NCBI GenBank assembly: GCA_963920635.1
Contig: OY987299.1
Span: forward strand, 132,181,373 to 132,245,372
Reading direction: 5' to 3'
Length of the DNA stretch: 64,000 bases
Source of the DNA: Pseudeuparius sepicola
Lineage: Eukaryota > Arthropoda > Insecta > Coleoptera > Anthribidae
Shown: one piece after another, positions 4,600 to 43,303 of the stretch
Layout of the letters: each line of letters starts with the position of its first letter
How positions within the stretch are numbered: position 1 is the first letter of the stretch
Position numbers and translations under genes: made by a program
The notes under the pieces: generated by a model
What the model saw: the letters and a program-made list of their open reading frames with translations, nothing else
What the model was told of the DNA's origin: nothing
The model's database searches: none

Positions 4600-4798
4600 G
4601 ACCCTCCGCCTATGGGCTTACAATTTCCTTTATTAGCATTTTATTTCCTATTGTGATTTGGAGATTACGGGGTGCGCCCAAGGAAGAACGCAGGCAAATA
4701 CATTGAACAAGTGGCAAAGCCTTTTATCGGTCACAGGTACTCCCTTGAATTTATATCGAGGGCAACGTGCTATCGATTCCCTTCGAACACACCACAGC
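4600..4798. repeat. Right arm of the intronic inverted repeat, near the 3' splice site
   Basis: Reverse complement of the 2358-2607 arm at roughly 75-80% by eye. It ends about 45 bp before the acceptor of the zinc-finger exon. In a pre-mRNA the two arms could pair. Confidence 0.75.
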
Positions 4799-4844
4799 CG
4801 AACGGAACGCGAACTAACTCAACCTTCCCCACCTCGTTCCGCAG

Positions 4845-5080
4845 GCAAGAAGCTGAAGTGCCCGTTCTGCGAGCGGCTGTACGGGTACGAGACGAACCTG
4901 CGCGCGCACATCCGGCAGCGGCACCAGGGCATCCGCGTGCCGTGCCCGTACTGCACGCGCACGTTCACCAGGAACAACACGGTGAGGCGGCACATCGCGC
5001 GCGAGCACCGCACCGAGCTCAGCCTGGCGCAGCAGGCGCAGGCGCGCCAGCTCGCCGCCGGCGTCACCCACAACCAATAG
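4845..5080 (+). CDS. chinmo: chinmo-like BTB zinc-finger protein, terminal exon with two C2H2 fingers
   Basis: After the split Gly codon the exon encodes 77 residues and a TAG stop at 5078-5080. Two consecutive fingers are complete: CPFC-x12-H-x4-H (ERLYGYETNLRA helix region) and CPYC-x12-H-x4-H (TRTFTRNNTVRR), joined by a QGIRVP linker. A short tail ends in VTHNQ. Paired C2H2 fingers at the very C-terminus are typical of insect BTB-ZF transcription factors. Chinmo has this layout and acts in nuclear control of temporal neuronal identity and growth. Four let-7 sites downstream fit this gene. Fruitless, broad or lola alternative terminal exons are the main alternatives. The exon is very GC-rich and the strong acceptor CCGCAG precedes it. 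Confidence 0.78.
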
Positions 5081-5272
5081 GGGGGCGGCGGCCGGTGGGA
5101 GCGGCCGCGGGGGGCGGGGCGCGGCGGGCGGGGCCCGGCGCGCGGTTGGCCGGGCGGGCCGTTGGAGGCGGGGCACTGGTTGGGCGGGTGCGAGTTTTAG
5201 TTTCGGCGGTTTCGACGTGCGGCACGGATGTCCGTGCCGCAACGCCGGGGGTTTTGAATTCGAACTGGATGA

Positions 5273-5278
5273 AATAAA
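5273..5278 (+). terminator. chinmo: Proximal poly(A) signal AATAAA
   Basis: A canonical AATAAA lies 193 bp after the stop codon and is followed by a T-rich run. It would give a short-UTR isoform lacking all the microRNA sites. Confidence 0.5.
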
Positions 5279-5492
5279 TGATATTTTTTTTAAATTTCGA
5301 GGTTAAGTTAAATGTTTTTCGTCAGACATTAGAACAACTAAGAGATTCTTTTGAAATGTTTGAAATTGATTAATTGAATTAAGAGCGAGCTTCGGCTACT
5401 CCAAATATTTTGGTGACAAATCAGTACTTAGAGTACTAAAATACTCTTTAATAGATTATATTTATAAATTCCCAACGAATTTCACATACTTA

Positions 5493-39620: not shown

Positions 39621-40067
39621 CCCTTAAAACTTTCGCGAGATGGTTTGTTGCACACCGTCAACGAGTAAAGGAATATGTATTTTAATTGTATATACATATA
39701 ATTCAATTCGATTGATTTAACTCATTTGAAAAATAGTCAGCCAGAGACAACAGACAGAAATATTATTTGAAACAGTTCGTTATCTTGTATACCTTGTTGC
39801 TTGGTGTACGATAGTATCAGTAGAATCGGCTCGCTACACGAGAAAATTACTACCGGTGCAACCTTATGCAAATATCTCATCATAGAGTCGCAGTTTTATT
39901 ATACGCGACGCTCGCCAGTCGGCTTATTACCGTATCATAACAGATTTCTTATTATAAGCGCGAGAGGAGGTGCTAAGTTCTGACGCTCATGAACTAAACT
40001 TGTGTGCGTAGTCAAGTTGCTGGCCGCATTTTTGAAGAACTCGTCTAAATAGTACTGACAGGTAGTG
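39621..40067. other. AT-rich stretch without recognised features
   Basis: Ordinary unique-looking sequence up to the target duplication of the transposon. Confidence 0.45.
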
Positions 40068-40073
40068 CATTTG

Positions 40074-42778
40074 AAGGGTATCGGGAGAAAATCAGGAATG
40101 TCCATCCGGAAGCTCTTCGAGAAAAGTGAATTTGAAACTTTAGTATTTGATGTAGTTGACACTTTGGATAATAAACAAGTAAAAAATGGTAATATTTATT
40201 GCTACGTTTGTTAAGAACTCAAATTTATAAGAAATTTAGCAGAAAAATACACAACGTGTTATAAAAACTATTAAAACTAATCCGACATCCGTCATTTATG
40301 GGTGAAAACCGGAAATGTCCACAGATCATTTCTACCTATAAAGACAAAAAGTTTTAACAAAAATCGATAATAATAATGTTTTTAAATCATACCAGGCTGT
40401 TGACTTTGGTCTTGATTATTTTATTGACCACTTCTGGAATTTTTCTGGAGTTGATGAGTAGGTTTTGTAGATGTACCTAAAACAAAACAAAAATTAGTAT
40501 GAGTAGACAATACAAAATATTCTATTTTTTGTCTACCTGTACTCTGCATATTTTTTCTAGTAGACATTTTTCTGGAAATAGACACGCGCTTGAATGATTC
40601 CACTTGAGCAGTCTTTTTAACTGCAACAAAGGATAAAAATTGGTTTGAATCGACGATATTTTTTTTAACTTACCTTCTTCTTGCAAAGGTTTTCTAGTGG
40701 CCTTGGATGGTCCTGGTTCTTGGACTTCTTGACTCTTTTTCTTCTTAGGCTTATCCACGTGGGGAATGTCCGCAAACATTTTTTTTGTTTCTTCTGACTC
40801 GCAAAATTTTGATAAAAAGATAAGGTCTTTATACTTGTCGCTGTCTATGGGGATAAAGTTGTAATAAGACTGTTGAGGTAATTCGAATTCAAAATGACTG
40901 TTGGCAGGGCTGTTGTTCATTAATATAGTTTTCCACTGATTTATAGACATAATAGGTGACTGAAGGTAAAATCCGTTGTAGTTGTCTCGGTGAGATATCA
41001 GACGGGGGTGGTCCATTGTGACTTTGAATTCTCTCATTTTTTGAATTAGAAATGGGCACTTTTTTATATACTTCTTGTCAGTGAAGAAGTCGGTCCACTG
41101 CTTGACGTGTGTCTGAGTAACGGATATCACATTAAACGGCATTGGCTTCACCCTAGCTGTGGCAATGTTTTGCTCCCAATCACTAGGAGATTCCATTCTT
41201 GTCTTTGTGTTTATTAGACCCATGTTTTTGTCGCACTCTAAGTACGAATGTCCACGGATTGGATAAGTAACCTCAATAGATTTAAACCGTCTGACAACAT
41301 GAACTAAATAATGAGTGAAACGGATAAGAGCGTAATTTTTATTTTGTCCACCAGCTCCATCACAGAAAATGTGCAAGTTTTCCACTTCATGAGGTAAGTG
41401 ATTCATGAAAAAATCAAACAAAAATGAACACACTTCATCAGCGCCTTTCTTGGCAACATATTCAGGGTAAGTATAAAAGAAAGATTGGGCATTCGACAGT
41501 ACGTGAATATTGAAGGAGAGCATTGACAGTTGTCGCTTATAATATACGTCGTTAGTAGTTATATTCGGGAGAGAAATGTTTTTTTGATAATCCATAGCTA
41601 TGCTTTCAAAGCCTTTCTGCTTTTGGGATCTTTTTCGAGCATTTCTTTTCCTGTCATAAAAAGTTTGAGCTTTTCGCAAGTGTAATTCTTTCTCTCTTCT
41701 TAACTTTCCTACTTCTTCAATATTATCCTTGATTTTTTCGGCAGCTTTTATTAATACATTAAACTGATCACACTGACTACATGTATCGGTCCTAGGATAG
41801 CCAAACCCAATGTTGAATTTTTTCTTAAATACCGACCTATATGTTTGATAAGATATTTTCTGAGCAGGATTTATTTCTAAGAACATTCTGTACATCTTCT
41901 TTATGTTAAGATCTTCAGGCAAATAAGATCTGTTCTTATTATCTTTTAAGCTATAATGGCTCTGTCTAGTCTGAAACGACGCAATGTGAGATTTAATACA
42001 ATCCAATGTCTCAGTCGTTAAAGATTTGTAATTTTTTCCGCCCCTCTTATCTTTTGGTGCAACACCCACATTCTTTAAAGAGCGCTGTAGGTACTCTAAT
42101 TTACTTTTAGATATACCATGTACAGCTAAAAAGAATTTAGCACAAACTTGGACTTCATCAAAACGATTGTCTTCCTTTATTCTCACCCGATACATGAAGC
42201 TGCTGTCGTGATATTTTGCAAAACATTCCGGAGCTCTTGACCTACGCCTCTGTACAGTTGTGACCGATATTAATGAGCACAAATAGGAATTTTGTTCGTC
42301 GTGGGATCCCAGACCGTTGAAATGATTTAAAATATTCCTTCTATTGTTTTCACTCACCTTTTCCAGACACTTAAGTCTTTTACAGTTACAAAACACACCG
42401 AATTCATGTGATTGCAATCGAATATTTTTCAGTACCTCGTACATTCTAGTCACCTTTCTTGCAGCCATTTTATTTAGAGTTGAACACAACACATCCTATC
42501 CTATTTACTTCATTAAGACGACTGGGGCACAATATGCGATAAAAAAATAAAACTACGTAAGATCATGGACATTCCCTGTTTATTACGTTTTAACTCGGAC
42601 ATTCCCTGTTTTCTCCGTACCTGGCATTTCTAAATACGTTAATATCTTGGCACTAACCCTGTTTTCTGCAGAACTGTTTAGGGCATAATGTAATAATTTG
42701 GGTCATCCGACACCAGATGGCGGGGTCACCTCGATTTGGCCAAAAAATGGACATTCCTTGTTTTCTCCCGATACCCTT
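40074..42778 (-). mobile_element. Complete DNA transposon encoding a DUF7869-like protein
   Basis: The 2,705-bp element has terminal inverted repeats of about 32 bp (18 exact bases AAGGGTATCGGGAGAAAA, two mismatches, then AGGAATGTCCAT). It is flanked by identical CATTTG hexamers at 40,068-40,073 and 42,779-42,784, a 6-bp target duplication. The motif GGAATGTCC recurs just inside: GGAAATGTCCACAGATC at about 40,311, and GACATTCCCTGTT twice at about 42,568 and 42,598. These look like subterminal transposase sites. The single encoded gene lies on the minus strand. Confidence 0.88.
40421..42492 (-). CDS. DUF7869-like putative transposase, three exons, apparently intact
   Basis: Exons are 42,492-40,674, 40,620-40,537 and 40,476-40,421, giving 652 residues. 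Both introns (53 and 60 nt) have clean GTAAGT...TTGCAG and GTAGAC...TTTTAG borders, and splicing keeps the frame. A later Met at residue 9 is an alternative start. N-terminus: a Cys cluster CNCKRLKC (35-42). Middle: CSQC (238-241), a possible zinc site, then a Lys/Arg-rich helix. Core: AMDYQKN (D301), FCDGAGGQNKN (D378) and GHSYLECD (E419). I propose these acidic residues as a DDE-type triad. These motifs match what I recall of arthropod DUF7869 proteins, which are usually left unnamed. The C-terminus is Lys/Ser-rich. There is no stop or frameshift. The terminal repeats and target duplication imply it is the element's transposase. Confidence 0.8.
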
Positions 42779-42850
42779 CATTTGTACGTTTTGTGCACAG
42801 TTTTAATTGATGCTCAACATTTTTGGGCATTAGGTACAATGATATTTACA

Positions 42851-43303
42851 AAATAAGAAAATTTTTAACAAAAAAATTAAAACCGACTTAAAAAATTTGC
42901 CCGTATCCACACTCCACTAAAAATTAAAAAAAAAAAACAAAAAATAACACCGACTTCACAAATTTGCCCGTATACACATTTCAACTAAAATTTTAGAAAT
43001 ATTTTTCCCTTTCTAAATTGGGTTATCTTTGGATTTGGTGACAGTCAAGGCAAGGAATTTAAATCTATTTAGATATGAATACATCATATCCTACATACAT
43101 CATAACTTACTGACTTCAAAGATAACTCAAATTAGAAAGAGAAAAATATTTCTAAAATTTTAGTTGAAATGTGCATACGGGCAAATTTGTGAAGTCGGTG
43201 TTATTTTTTGTTATTTTTTTTTTATTTTTAGTGGAGTGTGCATACAGGCAAATTTTTGAAGTCGGTTTTAATTTTTTTGTTAAACATTTTTTATTTCTTA
43301 TTT
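42851..43303. repeat. Fold-back repeat with AACCGACTT/AAGTCGGTT arms
   Basis: Arms of about 200 bp are nearly perfect. TTAAAACCGACTTxAAAAAT, CACTCCACTAAAAAT and TTTCAACTAAAATTTTAGAA are mirrored in the right half. It lies just outside the DUF7869 element. Confidence 0.8.

Follow-up and report, generated by a model that had tools for sequence, protein, structure and literature searches.

The Sola superfamily of DNA transposons, with its Sola2 group, is said to go back to Bao et al. in 2009. Among the other described systems, Kolobok targets TTAA, IS3EU makes a 6-bp target duplication, and the catalytic triad of Mos1, a Tc1/mariner element, is DDD. Sola elements are described in the literature as having a DDD transposase, a 4-bp duplication, a length of 2-9 kb and inverted repeats that measure 11-1124 bp (PMC10741241), and the Sola2 families of Dictyostelium as making AT-rich 4-bp duplications of the form AWWT (PMC3627910). 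Published accounts give a TA target duplication for Tc1/mariner and TTAA targets for piggyBac (PMC5199201), and for Dada a 6-7 bp duplication, small-RNA gene targets, a DxxH motif, a protein of 1402 aa in Dada-U6_DR and, for the Dada-U1 and Dada-U6 elements, an absence of terminal inverted repeats (PMC3706591). Here we describe an element at positions 40073..42779 of a 64-kb window (the whole stretch of DNA analyzed: 64,000 nucleotides of contig OY987299.1 of Pseudeuparius sepicola, positions 132,181,373 to 132,245,372), the gene of which encodes a protein matching the Pfam family PF25273 (DUF7869). The element is real and has been recently mobile. With a probability of roughly 0.8, we read it as an autonomous 2.7-kb cut-and-paste DNA transposon with a DUF7869 DDD transposase, most likely a Sola2-like member of the Sola superfamily.

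Ends of the element, target-site duplication and empty sites

When the left 63 bp of the element were searched against the 769-Mb genome (16 contigs), 17 matches were retrieved. Fifteen are left ends, one of them that of the window copy, and the remaining two are right ends belonging to copies that these left ends already represent. An earlier note on this stretch had anticipated other copies with the same ends, and at least 15 exist, a lower bound that covers only copies carrying the left end. In all 15, a G precedes AAGGG and a C follows CCCTT, and the bases farther out vary. Both nucleotides are therefore part of the element, which is 2707 bp long, has the ends GAAGGG...CCCTTC, and is flanked by the target-site duplication ATTT at 40069..40072 and 42780..42783. 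The 6-bp CATTTG duplication reported earlier thus resolves into a flanking C, ATTT and the element's G on the left, and the element's C, ATTT and a flanking G on the right; most of the other copies, too, carry 4 bp instead of the 6 bp expected for them.

An exact 4-bp duplication is present in 13/15 copies (ATTT, ATTT, GTTT, ACTT, ATAT, AATT, ATAT, ATAT, ATAT, ATGT, AGAT, ACAT and ATAC). Based on these 13 sites, A occupies position 1 in 12 and T position 4 in 12; the pattern ANNT fits 11, AWWT fits 7 and TTAA none, and a G or C is found among the four bases in 6. Two further copies are near-identical to the others and have intact ends, yet lack an exact duplication (L020, ATAC/AAAC; L021, TAAA/ATTA). 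This could result from aberrant insertion or from copies recombining with one another.

The terminal inverted repeats, at 40073..40105 (plus strand) and 42747..42779 (minus strand), are near-perfect, as had been noted, with a length of 33 nt where 32 bp had been given, and are identical at 31/33 positions with two mismatches. The repeated subterminal motifs were also confirmed. The motif GGAATGTCC occurs five times in the window, always within the element, against 0.29 occurrences expected, and five were reached in 0/100 shuffles. One occurrence lies in the left inverted repeat (40095..40103, plus strand), where it is a putative transposase-binding core, and one in the right (42749..42757, minus strand); another is subterminal on the gene-start side (42567..42575, minus strand), with a further one 30 bp from it (42597..42605, minus strand), and these three may act in the same way. 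The fifth lies within the coding exon (40763..40771, plus strand) and may be there by chance.

Empty sites, likewise anticipated, were found for two insertions that lie in repeats. The joined flanks of copy L013 gave 1507 candidates in the genome, and 40/40 of those scored continue across the junction with 93-95% identity, with AATT present once in the three that were read. The joined flanks of the window copy gave 675 candidates, 40 of which were scored; apart from the flanks of the window copy itself, which account for two, 38/38 cross the junction. Among the three of these empty sites that were read, GTTT, GTTT and GTTA occur once each, and one of these sequences differs by 5 bp six bases left of the site. 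These uninterrupted copies indicate that the element inserted into pre-existing repeats. In the window, the host repeat was traced over 39923..40072 on the left, as far as tested, and over 42784..42861 on the right, similarity ending most often at query position 228.

Transposase gene and probable catalytic residues

Exon 1 of the gene (40674..42468, minus strand) is an open frame of 598 codons plus one base, with the entire catalytic domain inside. Downstream on the same strand, two consistent candidate introns, predicted from the sequence, would extend the 598-aa protein to 644 aa: intron 1 (40621..40673; 53 nt, GT..AG), exon 2 (40537..40620; 84 nt), intron 2 (40477..40536; 60 nt, GT..AG, a length divisible by 3) and exon 3 with the stop codon (40421..40476). 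Of the stop-free three-exon gene described in the earlier note, the open exon stands, and the remainder of the model is plausible. The closest homologue, P0001, is 84% identical but has a different C-terminal tail, and predicted exons 2 and 3 are therefore unsupported by it.

The protein matches PF25273 with an E value of 4.7e-7 (30 bits against a cut-off of 26). Its predicted model has the RNase H-like core that had been proposed (pLDDT 87.8), and the best re-aligned structural matches are Mos1, SETMAR and retroviral integrases. A fold search of BFVD returned one match at E <= 0.001, an IS4-family transposase of Barrevirus, with the others among the 50 listed being mixed. A sequence search of the PDB with the protein gave no match, six peptide patterns from the analysis had no match among IMG/VR viral contigs, and a text search of the literature for GQNKN returned unrelated papers only.

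The Pfam match and the model thus favor the transposase half of the earlier DDE transposase proposal (D301, D378 and E419, numbers that are 8 too high and correspond to D293, D370 and E411), whereas its third residue has to be replaced. Across 80 aligned sequences, D293 is conserved in 79, D370 in 80, E411 in 79 and D413 in 80. In the other DUF7869 loci of the same genome, column 411 (26 rows) contains A in 8, P in 7, E in 6, S in 3, D in 1 and R in 1, whereas D is found at 413 in 25/26 rows, at 370 in 26/26 and at 293 in 32/33. These rows include multiple copies of certain families; with one row per group (hand-picked, letters present, L044 left out), 411 is E in 3/16 and 413 is D in 16/16. 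The exceptions, L043 at 293 and L044 at 413, come from stop-containing frames. On these counts E411 was rejected as the third acidic residue. Residue 420 was also rejected: in the other loci it is E in 25/26 rows, but in the window and in 69/80 close homologues it is N. Because D413, and not E411, is retained across families, the triad is most likely D293-D370-D413, with spacings of 76 and 42 residues.

In the mechanism that we propose, the product of the single gene is a DUF7869 transposase that combines an RNase H-like core with this triad. It would bind both inverted repeats (33 bp), probably via the GGAATGTCC core, and pair the two ends. The element would be excised by two-metal-ion chemistry, the target DNA cut at A-N-N-T sites, with the cuts staggered by 4 bp, and the ends joined; gap repair would then produce the 4-bp duplication.

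Genomic copies and recent mobility

Over their full length, 13 of the other copies share 99.70-99.85% identity with the window copy. The fourteenth, L015, has an internal loss of 228 bp and therefore splits into two aligned segments (99.76% and 100%). The 15 substitutions and five insertions or deletions found among the 15 copies are each private to a single copy, a star-like pattern, and three copies (L009, L011 and L022) have no private change. The near-identity of the copies bears out the recent activity suggested earlier. Divergence among copies is about 3.7e-4 substitutions per site, and the insect mutation rate is near 3e-9 per site and generation; with this rate, the age of the burst would be of the order of 100,000 generations.

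The full 644-aa frame is present in 11/15 copies, L018 has another tail (646 aa), and the frame is broken in L015, L020 and L021. Cleaner copies exist among the 15 than that in the window, to which F317L (1/15 copies; this column has Y or F in 69/80 aligned sequences) and an insertion of 3 bp located outside the gene are private. We infer that the element is active at present. Its youth and intactness make the family suitable for a transposition assay; no title from our literature search announces that a Sola element was tested for transposition.

Other DUF7869 families in the genome

The PF25273 model gave 535 candidates in the genome. Of these, 150 were scored, a set that excludes the window family itself; 150/150 exceed the cut-off, and 0/14 control genomes match. 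Candidate loci for DUF7869 proteins thus number in the hundreds in this genome, and the proteins have relatives in many insects. Copies were compared for seven DUF7869 families, with L026/L027 left out of the comparison of ends, since the ends of this family lie outside the sequence stretches examined.

Inverted repeats and exact 4-bp duplications were found in the family of L025/29/30/31/33/34/35 (ends GAAGAATGG; duplications in 7/7 copies, AATT six times and AACT), in L040/L041 (ends GAAGCGG/GAATGC; 2/2, AATT and AGTT), in a 685-aa family (ends CTGTGGTG; 5/5), in a family other than the window's with a 644-aa frame (ends CGTGGGCG; 2/3, L056 having GATT/ATAT) and in a 691-aa family (ends CGCTGC; 2/2, ATAT and AGTT). 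Exact 4-bp duplications are therefore present in 18/19 copies of these five families, and in 31/34 copies of six families when the window family is included. A at position 1 is combined with T at position 4 in 16/16 of the other-family duplications counted; the 691-aa pair, left out of this count, also has A..T. The two near-identical copies of an 838-aa family (L060 and L061) have neither inverted repeats nor a duplication at their apparent edges, and this family may be bounded or mobilized differently.

We conclude that the DUF7869 protein family is almost certainly a transposase that cuts its target with a 4-base stagger. A Pfam domain of unknown function that is present in many insect proteomes thereby gains a function, ends, a target-site size and a candidate triad, and with a transposon function and ends assigned to DUF7869, many genes listed as 'uncharacterized' become recognizable as transposons.

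The 15 sites of the window family are clustered, with five pairs within 2 Mb against 0.54 expected, a number reached in 0.06% of simulations (in which the lengths of C8 and C11-C16 were guessed). Local hopping was considered and rejected as the explanation: the C9 and C4 clusters sit where other DUF7869 loci are also dense (3-4 of the 150 scored loci lie within 1 Mb, where 0.39 would be expected), and a regional bias in landing or retention explains those clusters equally. It does not account for the C2 pair (the window and C2:133.9 Mb), which is without dense DUF7869 neighbours.

Among the 150 scored loci, 14 are on C9 against 6.6 expected by length and 18 on C10 against 5.5. The dense stretches, at about 3.5-10 Mb of C9, 5-13 Mb of C10 and 65-67 Mb of C4, are probably chromosome regions rich in transposable elements. 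The 685-aa family (L054, L055, L058, L071-L078) is a second young DUF7869 family, with five copies that have equal Pfam scores, two of which were compared and are identical over 3558 bp. Its left ends are located approximately at C2:112730474, C4:59600380, C6:7361364, C6:36695180 and C7:12715629.

Classification and alternative readings

By function, the element is a Sola-like cut-and-paste element. Its 4-bp A/T-rich duplication and its DDD triad, as assigned by conservation, fit the published descriptions of Sola and not those of Dada, and its 2707 bp and 33-bp inverted repeats are within the Sola ranges. The outer A and T of the duplication resemble Sola2, whereas the G or C within 6/13 duplications does not. 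Sola membership is likely, a judgement that compares published descriptions and not transposase sequences. The element most probably represents a new family within a known superfamily, and Repbase may well contain such elements under the Sola name. Other systems are less similar. Tc1/mariner provides the best re-aligned solved structures (Mos1 and SETMAR), but its TA duplication differs from the 4-bp ANNT sites found here, and the PDB has no sequence match. piggyBac and Kolobok share the length of the duplication and differ in their TTAA targets.

The earlier note held that the transposon group may be unnamed, which is doubtful given an anatomy that matches Sola. In its full form, this reading would make DUF7869 elements a DDD superfamily of their own, with a GH-x5-D third motif, 4-bp ANNT targets, family-specific inverted repeats and continued jumping, the 15-copy family being its first naturally active member and the likeness to Sola being limited to duplication length and triad. 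No Sola name appears among the names listed for 240 proteins, most of which are nameless and some only partially named; the names are 'uncharacterized', 'hypothetical', 'unnamed' or 'DUF7869'. The literature searched contains no paper that names DUF7869 or PF25273, and an explicit link from PF25273 to a type of transposon seems to be missing from it. However, database names seldom follow repeat nomenclature, and the three Sola features (DDD, duplication length, and size with inverted-repeat range) and the Sola2-like outer bases are all found here, so that we consider a separate superfamily unlikely. A very small chance is left to the idea that a different element supplied the transposase that moved the copies, their own protein being an inactive passenger. 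Many other DUF7869 loci are available as a source, some with long intact frames, but the five other families with defined ends have inverted-repeat sequences that differ from those of the window family, and the triad is intact. Retention of the frame in most copies is a weak point against this idea, because freshly made copies keep their frame anyway.

The comparison with Dada and IS3EU that the earlier note put forward falls with the 6-bp duplication on which it depended. CATTTG stands on both sides in the window copy alone, and the constant G and C together with variable bases five positions out refute a 6-bp duplication. Dada does resemble the element in having a DDE/D-type transposase and introns (predicted here), but differs in its duplication, its targets, its longer protein and, in Dada-U1 and Dada-U6, the lack of terminal inverted repeats. 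The DxxH motif that follows the second catalytic D in Dada was not found: G stands three residues past D370 (DGAG), and H occupies this column in 0/80 sequences. Membership in either superfamily is thus extremely improbable, and we retain the Sola2-like assignment.

Surroundings of the element in the window

Adjoining the transposon is a foldback at 42858-43290 of the window, consisting of two 174-nt arms that are 94% complementary and 85 nt apart. Far to the left, at 53-559 and 4657-5302, long open frames overlap on both strands in sequence that is apparently G+C-rich, in a window with 35% G+C. These are possibly host-gene exons or CpG-rich regions.
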